Shown here piece by piece: positions 2,847-59,807 of a stretch of 64,000 bases of DNA. Where the stretch lies: assembly GCF_900880625.1 (NCBI RefSeq), contig NZ_CAAHFB010000005.1, positions 62,001 to 126,000 of the forward strand, written 5' to 3'. The DNA is from Halorhabdus rudnickae (GTDB taxonomy: Archaea; Halobacteriota; Halobacteria; Halobacteriales; Haloarculaceae). Within the stretch, counting starts at the first letter, position 1. Each line of letters opens with the position of its first letter. The notes under the pieces were generated by a model. It made no database searches. It saw only the letters and a program-made list of their open reading frames with translations, and was not told the DNA's origin. The position numbers were made by a program, and so were the translations under genes.

Positions 2847-2913
2847 TTCTAATCTAACCCGTAAGTTTTAAGTTATACTCGATCTAACGTGGTAGTAGGT
2901 AGGAGGCGCTACG
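2847..2913 (+). promoter_or_regulatory. Regulon promoter-leader element, copy 1
   Basis: The element contains the box CTAACCCGTAAGTTTTAAG followed by CTAACGTGGTAGTAGG and the ribosome-binding site GGAGG before the ATG at 2914. It matches the other copies over about 60 bases. The TTTTAAGTTA part is at TATA-box distance from the second block, which should hold the transcription start. Confidence 0.85.
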
Positions 2914-3186
2914 ATGGTTAAAACTGAATACACACTTCCGGACGGTAGCACAGTCAACGTCGCCAAGGCGGAGAACCGGGCATGGAAAGAAAAGCGGGAC
3001 TCGTCTTCCACGGTATCCACCCTGATGGCCATCGAGGACCTTGTGACGGACGCTGTTCTCGTTCGAAACGAGCACGAACCGGACGAGGTGGTATCCATTT
3101 CGTCCACGGACTTCGCCCAGCAAGTCCGTGAGGGCGAAATTGTACCGATTGATCGAGAAGACCTTCCAGAAGAACTCCGGCTGTAG
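2914..3186 (+). CDS. Unknown regulon protein (90 aa)
   Basis: A small soluble protein that opens with a TEYTLPDGSTVNVAKAENRAW segment and contains a VREGEIVPIDREDLPEELRL C-terminus. The start is fixed by the GGAGG site of the regulon leader; it is the only gene of its transcript before a gene on the opposite strand. No recognisable domain. Confidence 0.65.
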   Translation: MVKTEYTLPDGSTVNVAKAENRAWKEKRDSSSTVSTLMAIEDLVTDAVLVRNEHEPDEVVSISSTDFAQQVREGEIVPIDREDLPEELRL

Positions 3187-3252
3187 TCTGCTTTTGCCGT
3201 CGGTTTGATTCCAAATCAGTGCTGTTGAGCGGTTGATTTTGGTACCGCTGGA

Positions 3253-4539
3253 TCAGAGAACACCAAAGACGATCAGAGCGCCGAGAACCACTAGGATGAT
3301 GCCGGCGATGAGATTCAGACGGTGAATGTTCTCCTCTCGCCACGACGAGATATCTTCGACAGCTGCGAAGCCACTCGAGACGGCGACCGTGATCCCCACC
3401 ATCGGGAGGATGAATAGCAAGTTGTAGAAAATCAGGGCCGGGATGGCCTGGATCCAGGGGACGGATGCAAGCAGGCCACCAGCGACGAGATACGGCCCAC
3501 TAGTGCAGGGTAGTAGGAACAGACTCACGAGAATTCCAGCGATCACTGAGCCGGTGATGACGCTCCGTCGTTCCCAGAGTGGTTCGGTCAAATACCGCTG
3601 CATCGTCGGCTTCCAGGACTCGGGAACTTCGGGTGTGAGTGAGCTCCCGCTCGAGATCCAGTCGTAGACGTTCAATACGCCAAAGACAACAGCCAATCCT
3701 CCGAAGGCGTAGCGAATGAAGGAGAGATCGATCGCAGAGATCGATGCGACGGTCTTGAGCCCGCTGATAAGGAGATATCCCATCACGAAGTACGTGAGCA
3801 TCACAGAAAGAGAAAACGCCAGGCCGCTGGCGAGTACACGCCGCTGATTGTCTGGATGACGGGTGAGGACGGTGGTCAACAGGATCAACAGGACAGCGAG
3901 CGCACAGGGGTTGACAGCGTCGCCGGCAGCCAAGGTGGCTAGCGTAGAGATCAGGCCAAGTGAAAGCGATCGCCCACCAAGTGATTGCGATCCTGATAGA
4001 GTGGGGAACGTGTCTGTCCCACCTTCAGCAATCGTCTGGTTTACCAGAGATTTCACTTGCTCGGTGCCAACTGCGTATCCGTCGTCGATGAAGACAGTGG
4101 GTGTGCCACCCCATAGCTGTTCAGGGACATCGTATTCCTCAAGATACTCTCTGAAAGCTTCCGAATTCAGTTGGACGCGGTATTCCCTGATCTGGAGATC
4201 GTGAGTTTCGTTCATCGCCGCGAAGAATTCCTCAGTATCTTCGCAGTGGGGACAGTTAGGGGAGTAAAAGTAGACGATGTGGACTGTTGTCGAGTTCGCT
4301 GACGTCTGATAGTCTTCTAGACCGCCCTGAGCAGGCGGCCCTTCTCCGTCGAGAACGGTCGTAGCCGGTGCTGACGTAGCGGCTGTGACTTCGGTGTCAG
4401 GAGCGGCGATAGCGGGTGAGGTGGCACTGAATATAAGGAGTACAGCCGCCGTGAGTATGAGAATCCCTGCCCCAATACGGCCTTTTTCTGTCACTTTTCC
4501 CCAGACGGCCCCATCTCGTTCCATTTTGTCGCTACTCAT
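3253..4539 (-). CDS. Thioredoxin-like / CcdA (DsbD-type) membrane fusion protein
   Basis: The 428-residue protein has an N-terminal membrane or signal segment (about 23-46). A thioredoxin-like domain follows, with the active-site motif CPHC at 96-99 and a TPTVFIDD strand-loop at the usual cis-Pro position. From about residue 190 a six-helix CcdA/DsbD membrane domain follows, with a conserved NPCAL near 210 and a second Cys in LPCTSGP. Proteins of this type pass reducing equivalents across the membrane to extracytoplasmic thiol proteins. A TATA-like TTTAAA at about 4570 is 25-30 nt before the ATG, so the mRNA is probably leaderless. It diverges from the regulon gene at 4647. Confidence 0.85.
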   Translation of the reverse strand: MSSDKMERDGAVWGKVTEKGRIGAGILILTAAVLLIFSATSPAIAAPDTEVTAATSAPATTVLDGEGPPAQGGLEDYQTSANSTTVHIVYFYSPNCPHCEDTEEFFAAMNETHDLQIREYRVQLNSEAFREYLEEYDVPEQLWGGTPTVFIDDGYAVGTEQVKSLVNQTIAEGGTDTFPTLSGSQSLGGRSLSLGLISTLATLAAGDAVNPCALAVLLILLTTVLTRHPDNQRRVLASGLAFSLSVMLTYFVMGYLLISGLKTVASISAIDLSFIRYAFGGLAVVFGVLNVYDWISSGSSLTPEVPESWKPTMQRYLTEPLWERRSVITGSVIAGILVSLFLLPCTSGPYLVAGGLLASVPWIQAIPALIFYNLLFILPMVGITVAVSSGFAAVEDISSWREENIHRLNLIAGIILVVLGALIVFGVL

Positions 4540-4582
4540 ATCTCGTCATGGGTTTGATCCTATCGAAGTTTAAATCGGAGTA

Positions 4583-4646
4583 TACTGTTTTAACCCGTAA
4601 GCTTAAAGTGTAAACCAATTCAACGTGGTAATACGAGGTGAGGTTC
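4583..4646 (+). promoter_or_regulatory. Regulon promoter-leader element, copy 2
   Basis: Box TTTTAACCCGTAAGCTTAAAG, split here as TTTTAACCCG and TAAGCTTAAAG, then TTCAACGTGGTAATAC and a GAGGTGAGG ribosome-binding site 4-5 nt before the ATG at 4647. A GTG at 4638 lies inside the binding site and is not the start. Confidence 0.85.
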
Positions 4647-5219: not shown

Positions 5220-5267
5220 CACGAAGTCACAATCACTACAAAACGAGCAAGGAGGATTTAGACTGCC

Positions 5268-9785: not shown

Positions 9786-11996
9786 TCACACGGACAGAAA
9801 GGCAGGGTCGACATCGCGCACCCGGCTCGTATCCTGGAAATGATCGGGGAACGATCGGATAGGCCCCGGTGTATCTTCAGAGTCCGTATACTGGAACGTG
9901 TGAAGGTCAGCCACAACGGCACAGTATCGTTTCGCTCGAGTGAGTGCTACGTTCAACCGTCGTGGTCCGTCGGGATCACGACTGAGGAAGCCCAGCTTGC
10001 CTTCACTATTCGATCGGACGAGTGAGAGAATGATAGCTTCGCGTTCGCTCCCTTGGAAGGAGTCGATCGTGTCGACTGTGGGCATATCATCCGAAACGTG
10101 GTCCTCGAGCATCGACCGGATTTCCCGAACTTGAGCCCGATAGGGGGTGATCACTCCGACATCCCCCGGCGGGAGATCGTCCAGTAGATCGGTCACGAGG
10201 TGCGTGACCATCTTTGCCTCATTCTCGTTCGATCGTGAGTGTTCGTCGACGGCAACGGATCCGCCGATATTGAACGCCTCGATCGCTTCGTCTCGTGATG
10301 AGAGTAAATCGACAGTGCGGCCGCTTCGGAGCTCTTTGTCGTAGAATTCCCGATTCGAGAAGGCCGCGATATCCCGGTGCATCCGATACTGCGTCTTCAG
10401 CTGCATCCCGACACCTTCGTAGATGCCGCCCGACGCGTAGAGATGCTCGAACAGAGACATCCCCAACTCAGAGTCCGGAGGAGATTCGGTCGATCGAAAC
10501 GGTGGGAGTTGCTTGTGATCGCCGGCCAGGACGATACGATCGCCTTTCGTGAGCGGGATACACGATGACGGGACCGTCGCCTGGGTTGCTTCGTCGTGAA
10601 CGACCAGATCGAACGTGCCGGCGACTTCCGCGGCGCCATTGTTCGTCGTCGCGACGACGTCGGCAAGCCCTTCGAAGTCACTGTATTGCTCAACTAGATC
10701 GGACGAAGAGTGCTGTCCTCCCCGGGGTCGGTAGAGTGTAAGCTCCTCGGCGCCGTGCTGAGCATAGGAATGTAGTGATGACTCGTCCGGGCTATCTGGC
10801 GTCGAGTCTCCGACGACGATGTTATCGACCGCCTGATTTGAGTCGGCACAGACGAGGACTCGCTCGCCGGCGTCGACCGCTCGGCGGATAATCTCGATCA
10901 GGGTCCGCGTCTTCCCCGTGCCCGGCGGACCGTGGATGCAGAACACGTCGTCGGCGAGCATCGCGAGCTCGGCAGCGATCTCTTGCTCCTGATTTAGTTC
11001 CGGGTCCAGAGTTTCCGAGTTGGACGCTGCGGCGTGTGAAAACGTGAGTGGCCGCTGTCCGGTGAGGACCTCGAGCATGGGATCGTGTCGAAGATCATCG
11101 ATCGCCCCCAGTTCTCGTTCCGTCGGGACAGGGTTCAACAGGGCGGACATGCCGATCTCCCCACCGTTCATCAGTGTCGACCGAACCTGCGATGGAGAGT
11201 CGACGTCTACCCACTGAACCTTGACCTCCAGGTCTAACCCTCGGATATTGGCCACCGTTGCAGAGATGGGGAAGGTGTCTGTCGGCCCGTGTATGAGTAC
11301 CTCGTTCCCCTGGTAGATACCGAACGTTGACGGGACGTAGTATGCCCAATTCTCACGATCACTGTGCCAGTCTCGATCGAGAGCCTGGGCTTTGAACCGG
11401 ATCGTCTGCCCTTGATCGTCGAGATACTCAAGAGCCGGAATGGCGTCCCCGTTCGCTTCGAAGATCTCCCGTGGCGTCGACGTCTGGGCCTGTTTTCGAT
11501 TCCCTTCCCGGGTGGCGTCACGCTCGTCGACGACGTGGGTCTCGAGGTCCTCGACGAACTCTTCGGGGTCGATCCGTCGCGACGGCGGTTCGCGATCGTT
11601 CACCGGCCGATCGAAGCTCGGGGGAAACTCCGCTGGCTGGTAGTCTGAATGCCAAAAGCGGATACGGCGAGCGAGACGAGTCTGGGCAAACTCGTCGATC
11701 TCGATTGCCTCTCTGTCGCCATCCTCGAGGTAGATGATCACCTCCCCGTGGATGTTCGTGTCCCCGTATGCGAGAAACTCACCCGTCAACTTAGCCCGAT
11801 TCTCGCCGTGTAACGGGATACAGACGTAATCGTCGTCGGGATTCGGATGTGTGAGCCCCCGCTGGCCGGCGAAGTCGATGATGGGTTTGACTGGAATCCT
11901 TTCACCGGTCGATTCCAGATCCCCCTCTATGATCGTATAGTGGTCCTCCGGGTCCGGGTCGAAGTCTGATATGACGTGATCGAAGAGCAGTGACAT
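9786..11996 (-). CDS. Superfamily 1 helicase of the UPF1/Dna2-like type
   Basis: The 736-residue protein has an N-terminal beta-rich region. The two-part helicase core follows: Walker A GPPGTGKT near residue 355, Walker B as VVHDEATQ, GDHKQLPP (motif III), TQYRMH (motif IV), VDTIDSFQGSE (motif V) and LNVALTRAK (motif VI). All key residues are present. Enzymes of this group unwind DNA or RNA with 5'-3' polarity and act in repair or RNA processing. It is a single gene with no operon partner; codon use resembles the DNA-modification genes nearby. Confidence 0.9.
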   Translation of the reverse strand: MSLLFDHVISDFDPDPEDHYTIIEGDLESTGERIPVKPIIDFAGQRGLTHPNPDDDYVCIPLHGENRAKLTGEFLAYGDTNIHGEVIIYLEDGDREAIEIDEFAQTRLARRIRFWHSDYQPAEFPPSFDRPVNDREPPSRRIDPEEFVEDLETHVVDERDATREGNRKQAQTSTPREIFEANGDAIPALEYLDDQGQTIRFKAQALDRDWHSDRENWAYYVPSTFGIYQGNEVLIHGPTDTFPISATVANIRGLDLEVKVQWVDVDSPSQVRSTLMNGGEIGMSALLNPVPTERELGAIDDLRHDPMLEVLTGQRPLTFSHAAASNSETLDPELNQEQEIAAELAMLADDVFCIHGPPGTGKTRTLIEIIRRAVDAGERVLVCADSNQAVDNIVVGDSTPDSPDESSLHSYAQHGAEELTLYRPRGGQHSSSDLVEQYSDFEGLADVVATTNNGAAEVAGTFDLVVHDEATQATVPSSCIPLTKGDRIVLAGDHKQLPPFRSTESPPDSELGMSLFEHLYASGGIYEGVGMQLKTQYRMHRDIAAFSNREFYDKELRSGRTVDLLSSRDEAIEAFNIGGSVAVDEHSRSNENEAKMVTHLVTDLLDDLPPGDVGVITPYRAQVREIRSMLEDHVSDDMPTVDTIDSFQGSEREAIILSLVRSNSEGKLGFLSRDPDGPRRLNVALTRAKRYCAVVADLHTFQYTDSEDTPGPIRSFPDHFQDTSRVRDVDPAFLSV

Positions 11997-12052: not shown

Positions 12053-12727
12053 TTAGTATTTCTCATCTCGCCCTTCACTTTTGGTCCTCCATTTCCACCG
12101 TTCCATCCGGTCGAGACACGTTTGACAGGTCACCGGCGGAATGAATGACTCACCGTTCTCGTCTTGCCGGCGCTCACCATCGTCGAAACGGAGGTTTGCC
12201 TCGTTGTTACAGAGGTAGACGCCCTCTGGACGGCTCAGACGTCCATCTTCGAACGCTTCCAGGACGTAGAGGTGCTCGACAGTGCTGCTATCCCGCCCGG
12301 TCCCGCTGCTGCCACGGAGCAAGCCAGAACGACGGCCCTTGATCGCGACGTCGTACTCGAACGGGATATCGTACTGATCCCAGAACGCTTCTGCCTCTTG
12401 GCGGGCCTCTTTCCGCTTCTGCCGCCGTTCGCGGGCCTTCAAGAACTTCTCGGCCTTCTTCTCCCGCTTGCGGCGCTTTACCTCTTCCAGAGACGTACAC
12501 GCACTCCCTCGACTGTTCACCTGAACACGGGTGCCTTCTGCTACAGCTTCCGGGTTCTTGAGGGCAAGATGGACGCCATCGAGATCGTCGAGCTCGATCG
12601 CACCCTTCTCACGGACAGTACCTTTCGCCCCACCCTGGAGAACGTCGGAAAGGCGGGGTGGGACCATGCCGACAGACTTCACTGAAACCGGCCAGTCAGA
12701 ACTCTTCTGCGGGGATTCTTGGCTCAT
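12053..12727 (-). CDS. Unknown regulon protein with basic coiled coil and Cys cluster
   Basis: The 224-residue protein starts at the ATG at 12727, which overlaps the stop of the upstream gene (ATGA). Residues about 85-120 are an extremely basic helix (KRRKREKKAEKFLKARERR), suited to binding nucleic acid. The C-terminal part has LCNNEANL and CQTCLDRM, a plausible HNH-like or zinc-ribbon-like cysteine set. It shares the transcript of the regulon element at 13000-13070. Function unknown. Confidence 0.65.
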   Translation of the reverse strand: MSQESPQKSSDWPVSVKSVGMVPPRLSDVLQGGAKGTVREKGAIELDDLDGVHLALKNPEAVAEGTRVQVNSRGSACTSLEEVKRRKREKKAEKFLKARERRQKRKEARQEAEAFWDQYDIPFEYDVAIKGRRSGLLRGSSGTGRDSSTVEHLYVLEAFEDGRLSRPEGVYLCNNEANLRFDDGERRQDENGESFIPPVTCQTCLDRMERWKWRTKSEGRDEKY

Positions 12728-12999
12728 AGTTCGAAGTTTTCCTCTCCACTGTCTTGCTGAACCCCGCACTCTCGAAGTTCGTCTGCCGTGAACGTGCCGT
12801 GCTCCCAATCGCTCTTACCCTGGCCGCGGGTGATCGGGGACGAAACACGGCCCCGGTAGACCGTCGTAGTCGTCTTCTGAGGTTCATCGCCTTGGACCCC
12901 AGTCACTACGTTCTCTTCCCCGACTTTTTCGTGAATCTCCCACATCCATTTACCCTGCATCGTCTGTTTGCTAAATGTCGCGAGGGGATCGGTTTCCAT
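12724..12999 (-). CDS. Unknown regulon protein (91 aa) with PITRGxG motif
   Basis: The start is the ATG at 12999, 6 nt after the GGAGGTCA site of a reverse regulon element; an in-frame upstream ATG lies inside the leader. A segment SPITRGQGKSDWEHGTFTADEL recurs in altered form in the protein at 29636-30343 (TPITRGHGEEIWDPEKGTDLL), so the two may share a small domain. Both are first-gene products of reverse regulon units. Function unknown. Confidence 0.65.
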   Translation of the reverse strand: METDPLATFSKQTMQGKWMWEIHEKVGEENVVTGVQGDEPQKTTTTVYRGRVSSPITRGQGKSDWEHGTFTADELRECGVQQDSGEENFEL

Positions 13000-13070
13000 C
13001 GTCAATGACCTCCGATGTAGTACCACCTTGGTACGGGATTAACTTAATATTAACGGGTTAGAATAGTATA
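13000..13070 (-). promoter_or_regulatory. Regulon promoter-leader element, copy 3 (reverse)
   Basis: On the minus strand the copy reads CTAACCCGTTAATATTAAG, then ACCAAGGTGGTACTACATC and GGAGGTCA before the ATG at 12999. It stands back-to-back with copy 4. Confidence 0.85.
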
Positions 13071-13130
13071 CAGAACGGTCGTTCAGGATCCCGTTACTGG
13101 CTGAGAGACTACTGGGCGCGGGCCGGTGAA

Positions 13131-13193
13131 ACCTAATTTAACCCGTAAGTTTTAAGTTATATTCGATTCAATAGGGGAATGGAGGTCAATACG
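13131..13193 (+). promoter_or_regulatory. Regulon promoter-leader element, copy 4
   Basis: Box TTTAACCCGTAAGTTTTAAG, a diverged second block (TTCAATAGGGGAA), then GGAGGTCA before the ATG at 13194. The in-frame ATG at 13179 overlaps the binding site and is not the start. Confidence 0.85.
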
Positions 13194-13829: not shown

Positions 13830-14708
13830 ATGCCAGTCGAGAACGGCTTCGTCCCGACGCCGGCGCCGGTGGCTGACTACGCGGCCTCAGTAGCCTTCGG
13901 TGCTGAGCGGCCGAGCGAGGTTGAAGGTGGCGGGCGCCTGCTACTCCCAGGACTGGGACAGGGAAACCTCTACGACGCCGTCCGCCGGTATTGTACGGAG
14001 GGGGAGAACTGGAAGAACCCGGAATTCGACTACCCCGTCCCCGAGTGCGTCGGGGTCGAATCCGATCCCGAACGGCTGGCAGAATTCCGAGAGCGGCATA
14101 CAGATGCGGAGATCACCCTCGTAGAGAGTGACTTCCTCCTGGACCCGCCGGAAGGTCGCTTCGACTGGGTGCTGGCAAATCCACCATACACGCGCTACAA
14201 GCGGATTCCTGAGCCGAAGCGTGAGGAGTACCGTGATCGGTTCGACCTTGCGAGAGGGCAATTCCCGCTGTATGCCCCGTTCTTCGAGCAAGCGCTTCGG
14301 TTGCTCAAGCCCGGCGGCTGGCTCACGTTCATTCTACCGTTTTCCGCGTTGACGACTGGTGTGACCAAGCCTCTGAGAGAGGTGATCCGGGGGAACTTCG
14401 CCGGCCCGATCATGTACCTCCCGGAGGAAACGTTCGACGTCCAGGTCGAGACGATCCTTCTCGGCCTTCAGAAGAAGCGAGACGACAGCGGCGACTACCT
14501 CTGGCTGGAAGAGCTCTACGGCTACGAAACGCGCCCGATATTGGAACGTCTTGGTGTCGAAGAGGTCGAGGACGCTGCAAACGAGTACTACGAGCGGTTC
14601 AAGAAGAAGCGAACGCTGGTGAACAACCGCGACAATTGGGAGCGCAGCAATCGCGACGAGAGTGCAAACCGGACGATCCGACAAGCTGGCATCCAGGAAT
14701 TCGCTTGA
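13830..14708 (+). CDS. N6-adenine DNA methyltransferase with PIP-box-like tail
   Basis: The 292-residue protein has an SAM-binding region (LLLPGLGQGNLYDAV, residues 37-51; VGVESDP) and the catalytic motif NPPY at 117-120 in the context VLANPPYTRYKRI. This places it among Eco57I/HsdM-like N6-adenine methyltransferases. It is compact and no separate restriction domain is seen. The last eight residues, QAGIQEFA, fit the PCNA-binding pattern Q-x-x-h-x-x-F. No cognate restriction enzyme is next to it, so it is probably an orphan modification enzyme, perhaps protecting element DNA. Confidence 0.85.
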   Translation: MPVENGFVPTPAPVADYAASVAFGAERPSEVEGGGRLLLPGLGQGNLYDAVRRYCTEGENWKNPEFDYPVPECVGVESDPERLAEFRERHTDAEITLVESDFLLDPPEGRFDWVLANPPYTRYKRIPEPKREEYRDRFDLARGQFPLYAPFFEQALRLLKPGGWLTFILPFSALTTGVTKPLREVIRGNFAGPIMYLPEETFDVQVETILLGLQKKRDDSGDYLWLEELYGYETRPILERLGVEEVEDAANEYYERFKKKRTLVNNRDNWERSNRDESANRTIRQAGIQEFA

Positions 14709-14840: not shown

Positions 14841-15725
14841 TCACCGCACATGCATGGCCGATGACGGCGGGTGGGTCCCTCGCTGGTTGGTCGGAACGAC
14901 GATCTGATCGACGAAAACGTGCTCGAACCCGTGTTCTCGGTCGTGCTTCCGGCAGATCACCTCGCTTCCGTCTCCCGACTGACTCAGAGAGAACCACGTC
15001 TCTGTGCCGTCATCGTGCTGGAACACGGCCGTAAGTTCGAACACACCTGAATCCCGCTCTCGACGAACCAGCGGAACTAGCGTCACTGTCTGGCGGTGCT
15101 TATCCCCCACTTCGACGGGGTCGGGGAAGCGAACACGAATCCGGTCGGCCCGGCTGATGTCCGGCAGGACCGGGTTCGATGTCGGCCGGATCTCGTTGAA
15201 CCCGTCACCGTCGACGGCAACCCAGCCAAGCGATTCGAAATGCTCGCGAAGCGCAGCCGGGAACTCCCCGAATGCCGTCAGGACGATCGGGAAGTCCGCG
15301 CCCTTCTCGAACCCCGCGAACTTGAAGCGCTCTTCGGGGAAGCAGATCAGACCGGCTTCAAGCACGTACTCGTGAAACCAGTCAGTACTCGGGTCGGCCT
15401 TTGAGAGTGCAACGACGAGGTCGGCGTCGGACTCGACGGCCTTCTTGAGCCACGGTTCAGGGTCAGCGAACGGATGGTTGAGCCAGACCGTTCCGTACTG
15501 TCCCCAGTCGTGGAGTAGGCCGCCCTCGTTGCGGATATTGGTCTCGGCCAGCGTCGACGTGTCTGAGGCACACGGGTCGAGATCGAACCCACGGACAGCC
15601 TCGGCGATCGGCTGGAAATCCTCGAGGCGGGTAGCGTAATCGTACTGGCCTTCGCGAATACCACTACCGCCCTCGCTGACGTGCTGAGCATCAACGCCGG
15701 TCGGAAGCTGAGTCTGACTCCCCAT
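14841..15725 (-). CDS. Phage-type DNA N6-adenine methyltransferase
   Basis: The 294-residue protein has the signature order of the phage Dam family: FDLDPCASDTSTLAETN near residue 47, then a Trp and VWLNHPFADPEPW at 80-92, then later FAGFEKGADFPIVLTAFG. The catalytic motif is normally NPPY/F; here it is NHPF (83-86), so His replaces one Pro. The C-terminal 110 residues form an added beta domain. It is driven by its own reverse regulon element and diverges from the cytosine methyltransferase operon. Confidence 0.75.
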   Translation of the reverse strand: MGSQTQLPTGVDAQHVSEGGSGIREGQYDYATRLEDFQPIAEAVRGFDLDPCASDTSTLAETNIRNEGGLLHDWGQYGTVWLNHPFADPEPWLKKAVESDADLVVALSKADPSTDWFHEYVLEAGLICFPEERFKFAGFEKGADFPIVLTAFGEFPAALREHFESLGWVAVDGDGFNEIRPTSNPVLPDISRADRIRVRFPDPVEVGDKHRQTVTLVPLVRRERDSGVFELTAVFQHDDGTETWFSLSQSGDGSEVICRKHDREHGFEHVFVDQIVVPTNQRGTHPPSSAMHVR

Positions 15726-15790
15726 CGTAGTTCCTCCTATACCTCCGTTGGATCGGTGATAACTTAATACTTACGGGTTAAATTAGAATG
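15726..15790 (-). promoter_or_regulatory. Regulon promoter-leader element, copy 5 (reverse)
   Basis: On the minus strand: TTTAACCCGTAAGTATTAAG, then ATCCAACGGAGGTATAGGAGG before the ATG at 15725. The second block is shortened compared with other copies. Back-to-back with copy 6, 48 bases apart. Confidence 0.85.
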
Positions 15791-15838
15791 AAGTGTGCCC
15801 GGACAGACCGGCAGGGAGGCGACCCCCGGCACTTGGAT

Positions 15839-15904
15839 ACTATTCTAACCCGTAAGTATTAAGTTATCACCGCTCCAACGTTGTAGTACATCGGAGGTCT
15901 CAAC
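15839..15904 (+). promoter_or_regulatory. Regulon promoter-leader element, copy 6
   Basis: Close to consensus: CTAACCCGTAAGTATTAAG, CTCCAACGTTGTAGTACATC and GGAGGTC before the ATG at 15905. Confidence 0.88.
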
Positions 15905-19233: not shown

Positions 19234-19578
19234 CTACGAGGAGAGCAACCGACTAAGCATGGCCCCATCGAGTTTGTAGAGCAGTTCAGCTATTTCGTCG
19301 TCGGTGTCTAGCTTGTAGCGCTTGCTTGGCCCGGTTTCCCTGGTTTCTTTGACAATACCTAGGTCCGTTAGGTCCTCAAGGTGGTTGTAGACCGTGCTTC
19401 TGGCTACCCCAGCTTGTCGGGCAAGCTCACTAGGGTTGAGATCTTGCTGTCGTTCGTCGACAAATACGCTGAGTAGCTTAGCTCGGGCCGGTGTTCCAAA
19501 GAGTTCGACGAGTGGCGTCCCCTCAGCGAAGGCTTCGCCTTGATCTTCCCCTTGGTGTTCGTCAGCTATTTCGGCCAT
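19234..19578 (-). CDS. Winged-helix (ArsR/MarR-like) transcriptional regulator
   Basis: The 114-residue protein has a clear helix-turn-helix: LNPSELARQAGVARSTVYNHLEDLTDLGIVKETRE, followed by a wing (GPSKRYKL). The start is the ATG at 19578 because a TATA-like TTTATAG lies about 25 nt upstream, making it leaderless; an earlier in-frame ATG at 19629 lies beyond that promoter. It diverges from the gene at 19690 and may control both. Confidence 0.78.
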   Translation of the reverse strand: MAEIADEHQGEDQGEAFAEGTPLVELFGTPARAKLLSVFVDERQQDLNPSELARQAGVARSTVYNHLEDLTDLGIVKETRETGPSKRYKLDTDDEIAELLYKLDGAMLSRLLSS

Positions 19579-21374: not shown

Positions 21375-21437
21375 GCGAATGTTGTTCGTTGAACCGTAAA
21401 TATCGGCACCCACCGGTCACTACATACCCGAATAGTA

Positions 21438-21503
21438 TACTACTTTAACCCGTAAGATTTATATTTAGACCGATACAACGAGGGAGTACACGGAGGTCAC
21501 ACG
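21438..21503 (+). promoter_or_regulatory. Regulon promoter-leader element, copy 7
   Basis: Box TTTAACCCGTAAGATTTATA, then ATACAACGAGGGAGTACAC and GGAGGTCAC before the ATG at 21504. Confidence 0.85.
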
Positions 21504-24956: not shown

Positions 24957-25178
24957 TCTTCTCACGATCTTATAAATGTTCGATGGGGAGAAAATGCAGA
25001 CATACTACTATATTTCGCCCATCTCTGAAACTCCTTTTAAATACCATCTTTCGAAAGCTTATAAATACAGGTCGGGGACCCAGTTTGAAGATATTGTGGC
25101 GATCTTATTCTCCATCGAGAGGCCGTAGCTATCGCCTTTCTTCGTTACCGGGTTCAAATTTAGAGCCCGAATCCAGAA

Positions 25179-25210
25179 ACTATTCTAACCCCTAATTTTT
25201 AACTTATTTC
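25179..25210 (+). promoter_or_regulatory. Decayed regulon box upstream of the alcohol dehydrogenase
   Basis: CTATTCTAACCCCTAATTTT and AACTTATTT resemble the regulon box (CCCCTAA instead of CCCGTAA). The second block and the GGAGGTC site are absent. The gene start is 21 nt later. It could be a weak or old copy, or a related promoter. Confidence 0.45.
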
Positions 25211-25231
25211 CAGCTTTCAAATCCAGTTGAT

Positions 25232-30343: not shown

Positions 30344-30378
30344 CGGCCATCCCCCCAGGCTGAATTGATGTGGTTCAT
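30334..30378 (-). CDS. Possible 14-residue leader peptide
   Basis: The ATG at 30378 is the first after the GGAGGTCACTACG site of the regulon leader, exactly where the gene start lies in other copies. The frame MNHINSAWGDGRWA ends in TGA overlapping the ATG of the 29636-30343 gene. The larger gene has no binding site of its own, so its translation is probably coupled to this peptide. Confidence 0.5.
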   Translation of the reverse strand: MNHINSAWGDGRWA

Positions 30379-30449
30379 CGTAGTGACCTCCGGTGTATTA
30401 CCACGTTGGAACGGGTCTAACTTAATACTTACGGGTTAGAATAGTATAT
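30379..30449 (-). promoter_or_regulatory. Regulon promoter-leader element, copy 8 (reverse)
   Basis: On the minus strand: CTAACCCGTAAGTATTAAG, GTTCCAACGTGGTAATACACC, GGAGGTCAC. It is nearly identical to copy 9, which faces the other way 155 bases off. Confidence 0.88.
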
Positions 30450-30604
30450 ATCAGATCAACCAAGGGGGTGCTCACCGGTTTGGAGCGGCGCCAATTCCCG
30501 CCCCCACGCCCATCGAGGGGCATGGTCGGACGGGCTCAACACGCAGGCGCTTGGGCGCTCACTTCATTACTAAGATCAGAGGGAGATAAACATTCCCCCA
30601 CAGC

Positions 30605-30674
30605 ATACTATTCTAACCCGTAAGTATTAACTTAGACCCGTCCCAACGTGGTAATACACCGGAGGTCAACAACG
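30605..30674 (+). promoter_or_regulatory. Regulon promoter-leader element, copy 9
   Basis: CTAACCCGTAAGTATTAAC, GTCCCAACGTGGTAATACACC, GGAGGTCA before the ATG at 30675. The earlier in-frame start at 30648 lies inside the leader and is rejected. Confidence 0.88.
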
Positions 30675-37397: not shown

Positions 37398-37456
37398 AGC
37401 GGATAAACCTCAAAACAGCCAATGTTGACATTCGGCGTGGTTTACCAAATACCCGA

Positions 37457-37527
37457 ATACTAATTTAACCCGTAAGAATTAAGTTAGAATCGGACCAACG
37501 TGGTAGTACACAGGGGGTCACGAAGAC
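37457..37527 (+). promoter_or_regulatory. Regulon promoter-leader element, copy 10
   Basis: TTTAACCCGTAAGAATTAAG, GACCAACGTGGTAGTACACA, GGGGGTCAC before the ATG at 37528. Confidence 0.87.
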
Positions 37528-38301: not shown

Positions 38302-38337
38302 AGCCTGGGGGCGAGCTGAAGCCGATCCGAATGTGGA

Positions 38338-38400
38338 TACTATTCTAACCCGTAAGTATTAAGTTAAAGCCGCTCCAACGTGGTAGTACAGGGAGGTCAC
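38338..38400 (+). promoter_or_regulatory. Regulon promoter-leader element, copy 11
   Basis: One of the cleanest copies: TACTATTCTAACCCGTAAGT, ATTAAGTTA, CTCCAACGTGGTAGTACA, GGGAGGTCAC. Useful as the reference sequence. Confidence 0.9.
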
Positions 38401-41910: not shown

Positions 41911-42033
41911 CCAGACGAATATATCAATCCCTCCGGTATAAATCAATGACACCTAGTCGGTGGGAGAGTGCTAAAACCGATATCTTCCGGCTAGTTGGCC
42001 CGGGACTTGCAGTCCACGCTTTAATTCTCTAAA

Positions 42034-42082
42034 TACTATTCTAACCCGTAACTTTATATACCCGGGGCCAGAATAATCAGAT
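42034..42082 (+). promoter_or_regulatory. Regulon box with ordinary TATA box, copy 12
   Basis: TACTATTCTAACCCGTAACT matches the upstream box, but it runs straight into a strong TTTATATA and lacks both the second block and the GGAGGTC site. The ATG follows 25 nt after the TATA. It separates the upstream box from the leader. Confidence 0.75.
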
Positions 42083-42234: not shown

Positions 42235-43014
42235 ATGAGTGCTGATCAGCTGGAACCCACACAGAGCAAGATTCGGCGCCGAAAGAATGACCAGTACGAC
42301 CTCCCTCTGGGAGAGCTCTCCCAGTCCCACGACTTCTCAGGGCGGGTCAACTACTCGATCGTCCCGAAGTGGGCTGACGCAGGCCGTGAGACGAATCTCG
42401 TTTACGAGGCGCGTCCGGGAGAAGGTCGGAAGGGGAACACTCGAAGCGTCCTGAAAAACGGCGAGAAGTTCACGATCCGGTTCCCGAAAACCCTACTCCG
42501 GGAGCGGGGGCTCCTGGGTGGGGAGACGTCGGTGACCCTGTTGTCCCCTGAAGAGGGACGAGTCCAGATCGTCCTCCCGGAACCATTCGAACACATCCAC
42601 GAGTTCCACCCGGTCGATAACGTCGCCTCGAAGGAGAAAATCCCGACGAAGCGTATGGGCCCTGGACGGGAATATGAGAAATACCGGCTGTTCCTCCCGA
42701 CGCAGTACAACCGACACTACGAGGATCTGCCGAGAACGACTCGGTGGTCCCTGGCTATCGCAGGGGGTCAGCCGGCACTCGCGATGACGTTCATCGACGA
42801 AGACGATGTCGACGAGGAGAACATGCTGGTTTCGAAGCGTCGGACGAAGATCTCAGGAGAGTCCGGCCACCAGATGGAACAGATCGCCGTGTTCCCGCCG
42901 ATCGGACTTGTCGATGCTCTCGGATGGTACGACAGTCCGGTCGGTCTCATCCCGGAGGAAGACCGCATCGTGTTCGTTCCCGATCCGGCTGGGTCGCCGA
43001 TGGACCTGAAGTAA
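42235..43014 (+). CDS. Unknown regulon protein (259 aa), possible AbrB-like segment
   Basis: Two bases after the 49-residue gene. A segment KFTIRFPKTLLRERGLLGG followed by TSVTLLSPEEGRVQIVLPE resembles the swapped-hairpin (AbrB/SpoVT) DNA-binding fold. The rest is strand-rich. If the resemblance is right it may be a DNA-binding regulator; this is tentative. Confidence 0.58.
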   Translation: MSADQLEPTQSKIRRRKNDQYDLPLGELSQSHDFSGRVNYSIVPKWADAGRETNLVYEARPGEGRKGNTRSVLKNGEKFTIRFPKTLLRERGLLGGETSVTLLSPEEGRVQIVLPEPFEHIHEFHPVDNVASKEKIPTKRMGPGREYEKYRLFLPTQYNRHYEDLPRTTRWSLAIAGGQPALAMTFIDEDDVDEENMLVSKRRTKISGESGHQMEQIAVFPPIGLVDALGWYDSPVGLIPEEDRIVFVPDPAGSPMDLK

Positions 43015-43069: not shown

Positions 43070-45280
43070 ATGAGTTTCAATCTAACTGTCAAGCCCATTA
43101 AGCAGAAGGATGCTGGGCAGCGGATGGCACTTATCGACACCCAACTTGTCCAAAACCACGAGCTCAACGGGGAGTATATCCTCATTCAAGGGCCGAACGG
43201 AACCGCGACCACCGCTCAGGCGTGGTCCGGATATGCGGACGATGAAGGGCAGGGCATTATCCGGATTGACGGAGAAATTCGGAGCGAGCTCGGTATCAAT
43301 ATCGACGACTCTGTCCGGGTGGATGTCGCAGACGTTGAGCCTGCCCAAGCGATCGGGGTGATCATTCCGGAGGACCTCCCGGTCAAGGGGAATTTAGAGC
43401 CCTCGCTGCGAGACGAATTCCAGGATCGTGTCGTCCAGGCTGGACAGAAAATCAGCGTAGTTCTGGGACTTGGACCTCGGCAGGAAAACGAGTCGATTCC
43501 GGTCTCTATTGAAGCGACTCAGCCCACTGATTCTCTCGTCGTTGTTAGGGAGAACACGAAGATCGAGATCAAACAAGGCGACCCGACTGCAAAGGAGACT
43601 GCCAACCAGGAAGGAGAGGCGCTCCCGGACGTTAACTACGAGGATATTGGTGGCCTCAACGATGAGATCACGCAAATCCGGGAGATGATCGAGGTGCCAA
43701 TGCGGCATCCGGAACTCTTCACCAAGCTGGGGGTCGAACCGCCCCGAGGGCTCCTTCTCCACGGCCCGCCTGGGACGGGCAAAACGTTGCTCGCGAAGGC
43801 CGTCGCAAACGAGGTGAACGCTCACTACTACCCCATCTCTGGCCCGGAGATCATGTCCAAGTACTACGGGGAGAGTGAAGAGCGGCTCCGCGAAGTGTTC
43901 GAGAAGGCTCAGCAGCATGAGCCTGCCATCATCTTTATCGACGAAGTGGACTCGATCGCGTCTGACCGGGCGAATGGCGATAGCGATGAATTCGAGAAGC
44001 GGATTGTCTCGCAGATGCTTACCCTCATGGACGGCCTCGAAGGTCGCGGTGACGTCATCGTGATCGGGGCGACGAACCGGCCAGACGCTATTGACGACGC
44101 TTTGCGCCGGGGCGGCCGGTTCGATCGTGAGATCGAGATCGGCGTCCCTGACAAAAACGGTCGGAAGGAGATCCTCCAGGTTCACACCCGAGAAATGCCG
44201 CTGGCAGACAACGTTGATATCGAGGCCTTCGCCGATCGGACCCACGGGTTCGTCGGTGCGGACCTGGCTGAGCTCGTGAAAGAGACAGCCATGAATTCCT
44301 TGAGCCGGGTGCGGCCCGATATCGATCCTGAGACAGACGAAATCGATGCTCAGGTGCTTCAGAATCTCGAAGTCAAGCAAAAAGACTTCGAAGAGGCCCT
44401 CAAAGGAATCGAACCCTCGGGGATGCGGGAGGTGTTCACCGAAGTCCCGGATGTAACGTGGGAAGACATTGGAGGCCTCGAGGGGCAGATTCAACGACTC
44501 CGGGAGATGGTCGAATGGCCGTTAGAGTGTCCCCAGATGTTCGAAGAGCTCTCCACCGATCCGACGAAGGGTGTGCTACTCTACGGACCGCCTGGGACCG
44601 GGAAGACGTTGCTCGCAAAGGCCGTCGCAAACCAAACGCAGAGCAACTTTATCTCGATCAAGGGGCCCGAACTTCACAGCAAGTGGATGGGCGAAAGCGA
44701 AGAGCGCGTCAGGGAGATCTTCGCCAAGGCCCGAGAGAATGCTCCGTCTGTGATCTTTTTCGACGAGATTGACGCGCTCGCTCCGCAACGGGGCGCTTCT
44801 CCACACTCTTCGGAGGTGTCGACGAACATCGTCTCTCAGCTACTCACCGAGATGGACGGTCTCGACCAACTTGAGAACGTGGTCGTGATCGGAGCGACGA
44901 ACCGGCCGGAAGCGATCGATGATGCGCTTCTCCGGCCTGGCCGCTTCGATGAACACGTCCGGGTCGGGCTTCCGGACCACGAGGCTCGAAAGCAAGTTTT
45001 CGAGGCGCACACCCGAGGTATGCCTCTCGGAGATGTCAGCTTCGAGAAGCTGGCTGAAGAGACTGAAGACTACTCGGGAGCCGATATCGAGGCCGTCTGC
45101 CGCGAAGCTGCGATGATCACAGCCAGGGAAACCTTCGGGAAAAAGGACCCATCGTCAATCGAAGAAGTTCCGTCAGGGGTCAAGGTTGAGCAGGCACACT
45201 TCGAGCATGCTATCGACAGCGTCGGCTCGAGTCTCAGGGCCGCTGATGAAGGGTCACCGCTCAGCGGCCAATACGGCTAA
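43070..45280 (+). CDS. Cdc48/VCP-family AAA+ ATPase
   Basis: The 736-residue protein has the N domain (double-psi barrel, residues 1-90, plus 100-190) and two AAA modules. Walker A is GPPGTGKT near 233 and again near 506; Walker B is IIFIDEVDS and VIFFDEIDA. Arginine-finger regions ([19 protein letters not shown]) are kept. It should be an active unfoldase that remodels protein complexes. A TATA-like TATATAAAA at about 43040 puts the ATG at leaderless distance. Carrying its own Cdc48 is unusual for a plasmid. Confidence 0.93.
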
Positions 45281-45330
45281 TACTATTTTAACCCGTAAGA
45301 TTTAAGTTAAATCCGAATCAATTGGGGGAT
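45281..45330 (+). promoter_or_regulatory. Regulon promoter-leader element, copy 13
   Basis: TACTATTTTAACCCGTAAGA, TTTAAGTTA, then ATCAATTGGGGGATATG: the second block is shortened and the binding site is GGGGG. A TTG at 45322 lies within it; the ATG at 45331 is the start. Confidence 0.82.
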
Positions 45331-45681
45331 ATGAAACAGACAGCAGCCTTCGAGAGTGAAGAAGAGGCAACGATGTGGATCCGGGAAACCGTCATTCCGG
45401 AGCACGCCAACGAAATCAAAAAGCACGGACCACACGAGGTCGCAACGCACCTTGACTACTCGCACATCGACCGGTACAGTCTCGCGAAACACCTCACCGA
45501 CCCCGTCGAAACAAATCACGTTCCAGGCCCGATCGAACGTCTCGAACGTGAGGTTCAGCTACGGGTCGCACGAACAATAGCCGACTGTATAGCAGCAGGT
45601 GACGTCGACGCCGCAATTCAGGTCGATGATCTACCACCGGCCTACCGCCCCGATTCAAATGAGGTGACGGCTCATGCTTAG
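45331..45681 (+). CDS. Unknown regulon protein (116 aa)
   Basis: A mostly helical soluble protein (MKQTAAFESEEEATMWIRET, LEREVQLRVARTIADCIAAG). The last residues overlap the start of the membrane protease gene. It could be its regulator or substrate, but nothing in the sequence shows it. Confidence 0.6.
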   Translation: MKQTAAFESEEEATMWIRETVIPEHANEIKKHGPHEVATHLDYSHIDRYSLAKHLTDPVETNHVPGPIERLEREVQLRVARTIADCIAAGDVDAAIQVDDLPPAYRPDSNEVTAHA

Positions 45682-49267: not shown

Positions 49268-49393
49268 CGAGATTAAGCGGGTAGTGGCCGGGGACTGGGA
49301 CGAAAAATTCTTGAAACAATCGACAGCGCTGAAGAGAACGGATAGCGCTCTGTGTTGAGTTGGGTCGCTATGGTGACCGCGAAAGCCCGTGTA

Positions 49394-49446
49394 AACTATT
49401 TTAACCCGTAAGTATTAAGCTATATCCGACCAAATAGGTAGTAAGC
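49394..49446 (+). promoter_or_regulatory. Regulon promoter-leader element, copy 14
   Basis: ACTATTTTAACCCGTAAGTA, TTAAGCTATATCC, GACCAAATAGGTAGTAAGC. It has a weak binding site (AGGTAG). It heads the longest operon of the window, 49447 to about 50672 and probably on to 56299. Confidence 0.82.
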
Positions 49447-50672: not shown

Positions 50673-50698
50673 ACTGGTGTGAATTCGAGGACCGTCTG

Positions 50699-53885: not shown

Positions 53886-53891
53886 GAGAAC

Positions 53892-55303: not shown

Positions 55304-55316
55304 CCGGGGGGACACG

Positions 55317-56299: not shown

Positions 56300-56513
56300 G
56301 CCGAGATCTAAGATTCCTTGTTCGATAGTCAGATTGATCGCCAAACTCAAGTGCCGACGCACCGCACCGGTTGGCTGGCCGAGCGTATTGACCTTAAGGG
56401 GGTCTGGTCGCTCGGCCAATTCCAAACTCCCGACCCACCACCCTTTCCGCATTCTAACGTGATCTACGGATTGACGACTGAGATTTATATGCCAAAACGG
56501 TGAAGCTATTTCC
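56300..56513. other. Intergenic stretch with promoter
   Basis: No gene is seen. A TATA-like ATTTATATG at 56482-56490 lies about 28 nt before the ATG at 56514, so transcription restarts here and the next gene is leaderless. Confidence 0.5.
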
Positions 56514-57114: not shown

Positions 57115-57228
57115 CGGTGGTTTTCAGTCCTTGCTGGTCCGTTTTTCTGGTGAAGAGTAGTACAGCTGGCCGAGTAGCATTGCTTTGATCGCTCGCCTAA
57201 CACTTCGAACCGTATCGGCCGGAAGTGA

Positions 57229-57292
57229 ATACTGTTCTAACCCGTAATGTTTAACTTGGGACCGGACCAACTTGGTGCCAGGAAGGGGTAGC
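57229..57292 (+). promoter_or_regulatory. Regulon promoter-leader element, copy 15
   Basis: TACTGTTCTAACCCGTAATG, TTTAACTTGG, GACCAACTTGGTGCC, AGGAAGGGG. A diverged copy with the same layout, followed first by the small frame at 57293. Confidence 0.8.
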
Positions 57293-57364
57293 ATGATACA
57301 GCGGTCACAACGCACCAAAAATAGCTTCATACGACCGGAGGTTCTGGAGGGGGTACAATGGTAG
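57293..57364 (+). CDS. Possible 23-residue leader peptide
   Basis: First ATG after the regulon leader's AAGGGG site. The basic peptide begins MIQRSQRTKNSFIRP and ends in TGGTAG, overlapping the ATG of the next gene at 57358. The next gene also has its own GGAGG. Same layout as at 30334-30378. Confidence 0.45.
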   Translation: MIQRSQRTKNSFIRPEVLEGVQW

Positions 57365-57780
57365 AACTCTCTGAGAAAGAAAGGGGGTGGATTCACAGGA
57401 ATGCGGGGTATCTCAAGCCCCTACTAGAGATAGACGGGTCATTTCTATGGAGAGAAATAAGCCTCTCAAACTCTCTATTGCGGAAAGCTAAAGAAAACCT
57501 GGCGATCAAACCCGCCGGGACCGAGTCGTTTGACGGGACAGGAATCAAGCGATGGAAGCTGACTGAGCCTGCTCGGGAGATCATCGAGGAATTCGAACCA
57601 GAACAGACCCTTCCGTGCGACTGCCACTACCACGTCAACAGCACGGAAGAGGGAATTAAATGTGAAGTGTGCGGGGAGATCCACACCAAGGCAGAAGTCG
57701 AGAAACATCTCTTATCGGACGGGAAAGAGGCGGTAGCTGACGGTGGTGCCAAGAACGGGGGGTCAGGCGATGGCCGATAG
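57358..57780 (+). CDS. Winged-helix-like protein with zinc site (140 aa)
   Basis: The N-terminal 85 residues have a helical DNA-binding look (SLSNSLLRKAKENLAIKPAG, IKRWKLTEPAREIIEEF, a wing-plus-helix ending). The C-terminal part has CDCHYH and CEVCGE, likely one zinc site. A regulator is possible. The stop overlaps the next gene. Confidence 0.58.
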   Translation: MVELSEKERGWIHRNAGYLKPLLEIDGSFLWREISLSNSLLRKAKENLAIKPAGTESFDGTGIKRWKLTEPAREIIEEFEPEQTLPCDCHYHVNSTEEGIKCEVCGEIHTKAEVEKHLLSDGKEAVADGGAKNGGSGDGR

Positions 57781-58312: not shown

Positions 58313-58314
58313 CT

Positions 58315-58848
58315 ATGCACAGAAAGGGTCATTTCGGAGTTACGCTGGCCGTCTGGTCTATTCTTGGGGTGACACTGACCACGCTCGGCTACCCTGGCGT
58401 TGCAGCCCTCGCCCTCCTGGTCATGCTTACCGTCGAGCATCTCCCTGATAGCGATTTCAAAGTTCCAGGCCTCTCGCACCGGGGAGTGTCTCACACCGTG
58501 TGGGCCGCTCTCGCCGTCGGTATCGTCGCCGGAGTTGCCCTCTGGTACGTCGCTAAGTCGTCGCCAGCGATAGCCTCTGTAGCGCCGGCGTATGCAGAAA
58601 TAGGGCTAACCTCCGAACGGTCTGTAGGACTTCTCGGGTTCACGTTCGGAACGATCGGTGTTCTCTCTCACTATGTGGCTGACCTTCTGACCCCGATGGG
58701 AGTGACGCTGTTCTGGCCGCTTTCGGATGAAACGTACTCGCTAGACGTGACGAACGCAAGTAACAAGATCGCCAATGTCGTTCTGCTACTCCTTGGTGGG
58801 GCGATGGCCAGCGGTGCCGGCTACGTCACTTACTCAGCTTTGGTCTGA
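58315..58848 (+). CDS. YdjM-like (DUF457) membrane hydrolase
   Basis: The 178-residue protein has 4-5 membrane helices and the family's His/Asp motifs: MHRKGHFG at the start, EHLPDSDF, LSHRGVSHTVWAAL and SHYVADLLTPMGVTLFWPL. These are the metal ligands of LexA-regulated YdjM/DUF457 proteins, thought to be phospholipase-like membrane hydrolases. The gene overlaps the 3' end of the opposite gene by 19 bases. Confidence 0.8.
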   Translation: MHRKGHFGVTLAVWSILGVTLTTLGYPGVAALALLVMLTVEHLPDSDFKVPGLSHRGVSHTVWAALAVGIVAGVALWYVAKSSPAIASVAPAYAEIGLTSERSVGLLGFTFGTIGVLSHYVADLLTPMGVTLFWPLSDETYSLDVTNASNKIANVVLLLLGGAMASGAGYVTYSALV

Positions 58849-59696
58849 GTGTCGAACGGAGGATTGGCCGATGCACTCGACTGTAGGGGCTCCGCGACGG
58901 TAGGCGTGACCCCGAGAGCGTTCGCGACGTCGATCTCGAGTTGCTCGTGGGTCTCCCGCATCGACAGCGGGTTTTCCTTCCGTGGCGTCACCTGATCCCG
59001 CCAAGCGTGCTGGCCAGCGCCAGCCACCACCTGCTCAGGGACACGGGCCAGGTAGTTCGGCGAAAGAAGCCCGATCAGCAGAATCGGTCGATCCGTCTCT
59101 TCCGTGATCGTCTCGAGGTCGTCGACGATTCGCTCAAGTGGGGTTCCCCCGCCGTCAAAGTAGTTGACCGCGTAGTACGCCACGAGCGAGGCATTGAGTT
59201 CCTCGAATAGCTGGTAGGAGTACTGACGCTCGTCGAGAGTGCATCCTTTCAGCAGCGGGATTAACTCGGTATCGACACCTTCGTCATGGAGTTTGTCCCG
59301 AAGCCACAGTGTGCCTTTGAATACCTTCTTCACCCGTGAGAGGCGTTCTTCTTTCGGAATATCGTTATAGTCAGAATGGTCCATCGGGACGTAGTAGTCC
59401 GGCTCAAACTCCCGCACAATATCGAGCTCACCACGACGGAAGTCGTTGTGCTTCCAAGGAATGATATCCAAGAGGTCGTCGTCGATCGTCGACGTCGCGA
59501 TCACCGTGGTATTCCCAGGGAAGTAGCTCTCCGCATCTTCGCCCCGTTTGACCACGCGACGTGCGTCCTCGAGGTTCATCATCGCAACGCTCGGCTCTGC
59601 GGCGTCGAGAAACTCCGAGTGCGACCACTGAGGTTGCACTCGGCAGACAGCCCCCCTTATCGGTAGATCTCGTTCGTCGCTTTTGTTCATCATCAA
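58830..59696 (-). CDS. Possible DpdA/TGT-like barrel protein
   Basis: The 288-residue protein reads like an alpha/beta barrel. Candidate tRNA-guanine-transglycosylase-like parts are REFEPDYYVPMDHSDYND, VDTELIPLLKGCTLDERQYS, SLVAYYAVNYFDGGGTPLER, and RPILLIGLLSPNYLARVPEQ, in the order of the substrate loops, the query-like strand and the GxGxP-like strand. In haloviruses such DpdA-type proteins insert 7-deazaguanine bases into DNA. Catalytic Asp residues cannot be fixed by eye. The assignment is tentative but fits the modification theme and the DUF6884-like gene at 60551. Confidence 0.45.
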   Translation of the reverse strand: MMMNKSDERDLPIRGAVCRVQPQWSHSEFLDAAEPSVAMMNLEDARRVVKRGEDAESYFPGNTTVIATSTIDDDLLDIIPWKHNDFRRGELDIVREFEPDYYVPMDHSDYNDIPKEERLSRVKKVFKGTLWLRDKLHDEGVDTELIPLLKGCTLDERQYSYQLFEELNASLVAYYAVNYFDGGGTPLERIVDDLETITEETDRPILLIGLLSPNYLARVPEQVVAGAGQHAWRDQVTPRKENPLSMRETHEQLEIDVANALGVTPTVAEPLQSSASANPPFDTQTKAE

Positions 59697-59740
59697 GCTG
59701 TTCCAGGCCCGCCCAAATGACAGTTTCCCTCAAACTGTAT

Positions 59741-59807
59741 CCTATTATAACCCGTAAGTATTAAGTTGTGCCCGTTACAACGTGGAAGTACATCGGAGGT
59801 CACTACG
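59741..59807 (+). promoter_or_regulatory. Regulon promoter-leader element, copy 16
   Basis: CTATTATAACCCGTAAGTAT, TAAGTTGTG, GTTACAACGTGGAAGTACATC, GGAGGTCAC before the ATG at 59808. Strong match. Confidence 0.88.

Follow-up and report, generated by a model that had tools for sequence, protein, structure and literature searches.

Regulatory sequences that are specific to one mobile element and repeated along it are already known in Sulfolobus viruses and Bacillus plasmids, and haloarchaeal alternative transcription factor B (TFB) proteins select subsets of promoters. In viruses of the Sulfolobales such as SIRV2, an element-specific sequence composed of a B recognition element (BRE) and a TATA box precedes many small orphan genes and some anti-defence genes with unrelated coding sequences, and these early regulatory sequences have been used to find anti-defence genes (PMC11065993). 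In the pLS20 family of conjugative plasmids, one conserved sequence (EGeRS1 or EGeRS2, the two kinds being found in different clades) lies upstream of several operons, including anti-restriction genes (PMC8708921). The start-associated sequences (SAS) of cluster K mycobacteriophages are also repeated and element-specific, and are located shortly before the start codons of mostly non-structural genes (PMC3203893). Archaeal viruses likely use the TATA-binding protein (TBP) and the TFB of their hosts, according to a review (PMC5569661). A similar arrangement is found in a 64,000-nucleotide stretch of Halorhabdus rudnickae (the window; positions 62,001 to 126,000 of contig NZ_CAAHFB010000005.1, hereafter C5). 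A private promoter, family A, stands before about 19 genes or operons of the replicon to which the window belongs, the gene of an unusual TFB among them, which suggests that the plasmid directs the transcription machine of its host to its own genes.

The genome consists of 3.36 Mb in six contigs (C1 to C6), and the window corresponds to C5:62001-126000. Contig C3 (10.8 kb) shares 1,137 bp (99.7%) with the end of C5 and 483 bp (100%) with the start. Because both ends of C5 are overlapped, the two contigs probably form one circular replicon of ~304 kb; the closure is likely, not proved, since the 1,137-bp overlap is mostly insertion sequence.

The original prediction named 16 copies of a conserved promoter-plus-leader sequence in the window, and the motif was found at all 16 of them, on the strand given and far beyond chance. 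In detail, its upstream 19-mer (up to three mismatches) occurs 12 times in the window against 0 expected in shuffles, and the second block 11 times against 0.32 expected. The exact 19-mer is kept in only three window copies, and what all copies share is its core, TACTATTYTAACCCGTAAG. A weight matrix built from 17 window sites gave 29-54 bits at these sites and at two further sites of C5, with the next-best scores on this contig at 14.7 and below and maxima of 10.2 in shuffled and 16.6 in reversed C5. A genome model of 58 columns, trained on 16 copies (matches taken at E<=10, 150 of the 219 first-look candidates scored), showed 20 matches, of which 19 are on C5 (17 within the window) and one on C3, with none on C1, C2, C4 and C6. 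This agrees with the confinement to the element that had been proposed as a test. The copies outside the window are C5:59745, C5:215136 and C3:5756; the second was part of the training set, and the untrained first and third score 29.1 and 50.4 bits, respectively.

The search was extended to 391 other genomes of the order with stricter filters and 14 candidates scored per genome, a limit under which the own genome showed 14 of its 20 copies, so that weak matches elsewhere can be missed. It gave a single weak match (E 3.1e-4), located before an alcohol-dehydrogenase gene. Fuller scoring of the seven genomes of the genus gave matches in the own genome and in that same single genome. An alcohol-dehydrogenase gene also follows the supposed decayed copy at 25179 (here 25177); the gene behind the weak match, in another genome of the genus, is its 95%-identical orthologue and has the same promoter. 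Since this sister species, which gave no other match, shares the promoter, the copy was rejected as a family member, and 19 members are left. More plausibly, it is the promoter that belongs to the dehydrogenase gene itself.

Outside the motif, the 19 members resemble one another at the level of chance, with a mean pairwise identity of 25-26% over five upstream blocks of 20 bp and of 28-29% over the 60 bases that follow the ATG. Within the motif, it amounts to 76% (columns 1-14), 94% (15-22), 70% (23-32), 48% (33-41) and 56% (42-57). Since flanks and coding starts are at chance, the edges of the motif are sharp and variable columns lie inside it, these values argue for selection as the source of the conservation, and not for recent copying.

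Two classes of members are distinguished. In the leadered class (15/19), the distance from column 1 to the ATG is 66-73 bases and all 15 members have a Shine-Dalgarno-like motif, whereas in the short class (C5:59745, C5:104031, C5:107278 and C5:111391) the distance is 52-56 bases; the constant distance to the start codon claimed for all copies thus applies to the former class and fails for the four members of the latter. The box (columns 3-14; 83% identity in leadered vs 82% in short members) and the BRE (columns 15-22; 94% in each) are kept in both, and identity falls in the short members from 76% to 47% in the TATA box, from 52% to 30% in the spacer and from 70% to 27% in the second block. 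For this reason, the promoter is, as the alignment reads, composed of two modules: TACTATTYTAACCCGTAAG, in all members, and the downstream block with the Shine-Dalgarno motif, present only together with a leader.

The elements published for haloarchaea are a BRE of CGAAA, a TATA box of TTWT and WW at position -10, and 72% of the haloarchaeal protein-coding transcripts are leaderless (PMC4983044). Family A agrees with these elements apart from the BRE. TACTATTYTAACCCGTAAG represents an upstream box of 18-20 bp that ends in the non-standard BRE CGTAA (CGT in 19/19 members, CGTAA in 18/19) and is followed by a TATA-like box. The CGTAA and the TATTAAG-like box stand in the register of haloarchaeal promoters, in which the start site is found about 25-28 bp downstream of the TATA centre, and start sites were predicted from this geometry. 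Column 54, the predicted +1, is A in 17/19 members, and AA is located at columns 43-44 (-11/-10), again in 17/19. A single transcription start, as originally proposed, is retained as a prediction. In short members, the ATG follows the CCG of the BRE by 37-38 bases in three cases and by 41 in the fourth; it is predicted to lie at or near the start site, where leaderless transcripts would begin. Since the geometry places the second block between the TATA box and +1, most of the supposed leader is upstream of +1. The block, kept only in leadered members, reads as promoter spacer and initiator, and the idea of a conserved transcribed 5' leader finds no support; that of a special promoter for an element-specific set of genes is supported.

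A candidate for the element-coded factor, also part of the original prediction, is a TFB whose own gene carries a copy of the promoter. In the TFIIB scan of the genome, an open frame of 812 codons on C5 was matched; the gene that it contains, the TFB-fusion gene (C5:59797-62196, 799 aa), is directly preceded by copy C5:59745 with the ATG 38 nt from the CCG of the BRE. Pfam recognizes the zinc ribbon (PF08271, 45.7 bits) and one TFIIB repeat only (PF00382, 74.8 bits). The second repeat was found by alignment to the genome's other TFBs and to solved TFIIB chains, among them chain B of the archaeal 1d3u (query residues 155-331), so that the zinc ribbon and both cyclin repeats of the TFB family are present. 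Its score of 219 bits is below the NF001658 full-length cut-off of 384 bits, and it is for this reason regarded as a divergent member of the family. An extension of 450 aa with a second zinc-finger-like CxxC pair follows the repeats. The recognition-helix stretch reads TPNTIRESRRDI, vs EVTIRNRY in four aligned TFBs of C1. In the Pfam scan of the first genes behind all 19 members (the next open reading frame (ORF) where the first is <50 codons), this TFB was the sole transcription-factor match. It is named as the factor mainly because an altered factor stands beside an altered site, and it seems, on circumstantial grounds, to be the best candidate for reading the A promoter.

For the extension, the 391 other genomes of the order gave two weak matches, with E 6.6e-5 and 7.6e-4; plasmids gave none at E<=0.1, and no viral relative was confirmed. 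The better of the two matches (L101 1357-2364) is a stand-alone haloarchaeal protein of 335 aa, with E 2e-8 in a comparison of two sequences, which itself has no match in Pfam or NCBIfam. Separately, at C5:16843-18261 a full TFB gene is found beside a partial TFB match, either a duplicate or a remnant; at 40% identity, the full copy is closer to the TFB fusion than any other TFB compared.

Under the reading proposed here, to which roughly even chances are given, family A is a plasmid-specific regulon, and its copies are full haloarchaeal promoters read by the plasmid's own TFB with the host RNA polymerase. Regulation through the A promoter, as we infer it, could proceed as follows. The TFB fusion, placed behind its own promoter copy, would control itself and would recruit the host RNA polymerase, with a TBP of host or plasmid, to the genes of the regulon. 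The non-standard BRE would be read by the divergent recognition helix of the protein, with a footprint on CCCGTAAG and no preference for CGAAA, and the 450-aa extension with the second CxxC pair may contact the upstream box. Transcription of leadered members would start at the A of GTAGTACA and that of short members at the ATG.

A second family of repeats, family B (consensus AAACCCAATnACTACCGAAACACTTATTATAATnCCGCTCTATGGACTAGATAC), emerged from the comparison of C3 with C5. Its model (19 training copies, 150 of 316 candidates scored, the same result in two runs) gave 37 sites. In detail, 33 are clustered at 183.4-214.3 kb of C5 (C5:183429-214277), one is located at C5:58490 and three on C3 (L030: 2031, 6370 and 6403); no site was found on other contigs of the genome or, within the scoring limits given for family A, in the 391 other genomes of the order. 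In 36/37 cases an ATG is placed 58-77 bases from column 1, although the one at C5:185376 opens no 40-codon frame and that at C5:208431 opens one only further down. A Shine-Dalgarno motif is present in 33/37, and WW at the -11/-10 columns in 33/37. The BRE is of the standard form, with CGAA in 37/37 and CGAAA in 32/37. The consensus sequences of A and B have the same 20-base spacing between two CCG triplets. The B copy at C5:58490 precedes a gene of 305 aa directly upstream of the TFB-fusion gene; the similarity of its product to the TFB extension is doubtful (E 0.028), and that to the stand-alone 335-aa protein has E 4e-4, values which derive from comparisons of one or two sequences. Family B would be read by a host-type TFB together with another plasmid factor. 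A more far-reaching reading, tentative and rather short of even probability, is that the plasmid has two promoter sets of its own, with their centres in different parts of the replicon, and that one is directed by a plasmid-coded TFB fused to an extra DNA-contacting domain. Such a protein would be the archaeal counterpart of a phage or plasmid sigma factor, with a promoter poorly read by host TFBs.

Several points weigh against the assignment of the A promoters to the TFB fusion. That the divergent positions of the recognition helix touch the BRE is presumed from archaeal TFB structures, and plasmid TFBs generally vary at these positions. The genome has at least eight other two-repeat TFB loci (with TFB matches on C1, C2, C6 and at C5:17701) and four TBP loci (on C1 and at three places of C5), and any of them could serve. 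The fusion and the A promoter were found in this genome alone, so that the link between them rests on one genome. A logo of host promoters, built on 73 of 502 upstream regions, had too much noise for a host BRE to emerge, and the start column of family B is less clear, with A at +1 in only 21/37 sites. Finally, the usual BRE is 6-7 bp long (PMC5512572); because the box of ~20 bp exceeds it, a separate upstream-binding protein may be needed.

This last point leads to the strongest alternative, which is on the unlikely side: the box TACTATTYTAAC would be the site of a separate plasmid-coded activator that, in the manner of EarA and TFB-RF1, recruits one of the ordinary TFBs of the host to a weak BRE. 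The typical binding site of known activators is located upstream of the BRE, and weak BREs are rescued by them (PMC5512572; PMC5937170). The BRE of family A differs from CGAAA in 19/19 members and the box extends ~12 bp upstream of it, and family B pairs a different upstream box with a standard BRE, as if a separate protein reads the box. However, no activator was recognized by Pfam in the first genes of the 19 members, only the TFB; a regulator encoded elsewhere on the plasmid, for instance the helix-turn-helix protein at 19234-19578, is a possible activator.

Clearly less probable is that the box is the operator of a plasmid repressor, which would give transient establishment expression after transfer. 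EGeRS2 of the clade II pLS20-type plasmids and the Aca-controlled early genes of viruses are precedents (PMC8708921; PMC11065993), and here too methylases and orphan genes in several operons share one conserved sequence. TraG/VirB4-like conjugation-type ATPase matches are found at two places of the replicon (C5:168866-178295, above the Pfam cut-off, and C5:2309-8343, below it). Against this reading, a repressor site does not require an altered BRE, and Pfam recognized no repressor among the 19 first genes, the promoter being carried instead by the TFB gene.

It is very improbable that the copies are promoter cassettes recently duplicated together with genes and unselected as binding sites: some pairs are highly identical over nearly 60 bp, but this would not explain flanks and coding starts at chance, variable columns between invariant ones or short members that keep only box and BRE. 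Least probable of all, the copies would be single-stranded, Frpo-like promoters of a conjugative leading region, which the gene content resembles and which 15/19 members on the same strand would fit, but 4/19 members are on the opposite strand, the five of 19 members that were folded as single-stranded DNA were all less stable than the shuffle mean (z 0.22 to 1.70) and the copies are recognizable as double-stranded archaeal promoters.

The copies of the window and the genes behind them are given in table 1.

Table 1. Copies of family A in the window, the excluded look-alike and the TFB-fusion gene (window positions, unless C5 is named).
Feature	Position	Strand	Start codon and genes
Family A, leadered	2845..2899	+	ATG 2914, 90-aa ORF
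Family A, leadered	4580..4636	+	ATG 4647
Family A, leadered	13015..13071	-	ATG 12999, 91-aa ORF, then 12053-12769, AAA helicase 9786-11996
Family A, leadered	13129..13182	+	ATG 13194, then Eco57I-type methylase 13830-14708
Family A, leadered	15735..15789	-	ATG 15725, Dam-like methylase 14841-15725
Family A, leadered	15836..15891	+	ATG 15905, C5-cytosine methylase-like
Family A, leadered	21435..21491	+	ATG 21504, 369 aa, no Pfam match
Family A, leadered	30393..30448	-	14-codon ORF at 30378, then 29636-30343, C5-cytosine methylase 28383-29639
Family A, leadered	30603..30659	+	ATG 30675
Family A, leadered	37455..37511	+	ATG 37528
Family A, leadered	38336..38390	+	ATG 38404
Family A, short (upstream box and BRE only)	42032..42055	+	ATG 42083, 49-codon ORF, predicted leaderless
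Family A, short	45279..45333	+	ATG 45331, predicted leaderless
Family A, short	49391..49443	+	ATG 49447
Family A, leadered	57227..57282	+	ATG 57293, 23-codon ORF only (57293-57364); next gene 57358-57780
Family A, leadered	59737..59793	+	ATG 59808, gene run up to HerA-like ATPase 61121-62923
Look-alike, not counted as family A member	25177..25211	+	Before alcohol-dehydrogenase gene 25232-26290
TFB-fusion gene	C5:59797-62196	+	799 aa; 3' end = window 1..196; promoter copy C5:59745 outside window

Behind the A copies are found Eco57I-type, Dam-like and C5-cytosine methylases, an AAA helicase, Cdc48-type and HerA-like ATPases and, at C5:215590, a Rad3-type helicase, and many products have no Pfam match. 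Downstream of the copy at 42032, a gene at 42235-43014 is followed by the Cdc48-type AAA ATPase (43070-45280). With operons defined by gaps of <=150 bp, and with heuristic gene calls from which genes with <12% acidic residues were dropped, the copies cover 31 of the 77 predicted genes of the window (the copy at 42032, followed first by a short ORF, received none), which is less than the control of most unknown genes originally supposed. This gene content would be consistent with an early or establishment programme. As a separate observation, the 14-codon ORF at 30378 overlaps the start of the gene that follows it (29636-30343), and may represent a leader peptide or translational coupling.

Beyond this replicon, pattern searches were performed in collections that may exclude the own genome. 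The degenerate A core pattern gave two single matches in the genome contigs, both in bacterial metagenome-assembled genomes, and two single matches in the viral contigs, in DNA of 35% and 45% G+C; with a longer A pattern, a single match was obtained, in DNA of 30% G+C. The B pattern had none, and a 15-mer of B matched once in each of 16 stretches.

As a detector of such promoters, a count of 10-mers that recur before ORFs also responded to 100 kb of chromosomal DNA, with 57 G+C-rich words, for which reason the survey was restricted to noncoding DNA. It included C5, C2, C4 and C6 in full, together with five pieces of 20 kb from C1 (2.29 Mb), ten of 40 kb from other Haloarculaceae contigs (at least two of them chromosomes by size) and 150 kb from a Salinibaculum plasmid that has related genes. 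Large repeat families were found only in the A and B regions of C5, in part of C2 and in G091 and G098; on inspection, the families of the last three were rejected as A- or B-like, being inverted or iteron-like repeats and one coding-looking set. In the other pieces, single 10-mers occurred four times without forming such families. No A- or B-like repeat was seen in one virus record or in four plasmid regions that surround TFB genes, where other repeats are present. Within this small survey, the repeated promoter seems to be a property of this replicon.

Two other repeats were observed. The inverted repeat TTAACCAACA-N18-24-TGTTGGTTAA is shared by plasmids from different haloarchaeal genera and by one record of a tailed virus (L179, L180, L181, L182, L167-L168 of G091:C3, the own C2 at 84-141 kb, and L183), with eight copies on C2, 2-4 in each of the others and single ones on C5 and G148:C2; it was absent from 10 other sets. 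A T-run with a G+C hairpin (TTTTT-CCCC..GGGGTGCGGGG) precedes several genes near TFB genes of conjugation-type plasmids (L179-L182 and the own C2; 1-5 per region) and is close to ArdC-like genes in two regions. It is possibly a shared promoter or leader hairpin of an establishment region.

If the plasmid TFB does read the A promoters, an archaeal mobile element would take a share of host transcription without a polymerase of its own, by bringing along a general transcription factor in modified form and the promoters that go with it. Factor and site, each altered, would also be a natural pair on which the BRE specificity of paralogous TFBs can be tested, and orphan genes that act together, likely early or anti-restriction genes among them, would be recognizable by the promoter.

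Searches of a partial library of the literature on plasmid TFBs, promoter motifs of archaeal viruses and regulons of archaeal elements showed no report of such a TFB fusion or of paired promoter families. The Sulfolobales sequences belong to crenarchaeal viruses and have a strong BRE, and the part of that article considered here proposes no element-coded TFB (PMC11065993). In contrast, the present case concerns a haloarchaeal plasmid with an altered BRE, two families, a TFB gene inside the regulon and both leadered and leaderless classes. The EGeRS are bacterial, EGeRS1 with 400-600 bp and inverted repeats and EGeRS2 controlled by a repressor (PMC8708921), whereas the sequence described here has ~60 bp, no hairpin and archaeal core promoter elements, and two kinds are found on one replicon. 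SAS are 13-bp sequences similar to ribosome-binding sites, typically 3-7 bp from the start codon (PMC3203893). Unlike them, the invariant part of family A belongs to a promoter and, in leadered members, precedes the ATG by ~45-70 bp. To our knowledge, the known regulons of haloarchaeal TFB and TBP paralogues are chromosomal and have no shared promoter sequence of this length; here, by contrast, the TFB is encoded by the plasmid, has a large extension and is placed behind its own type of promoter.

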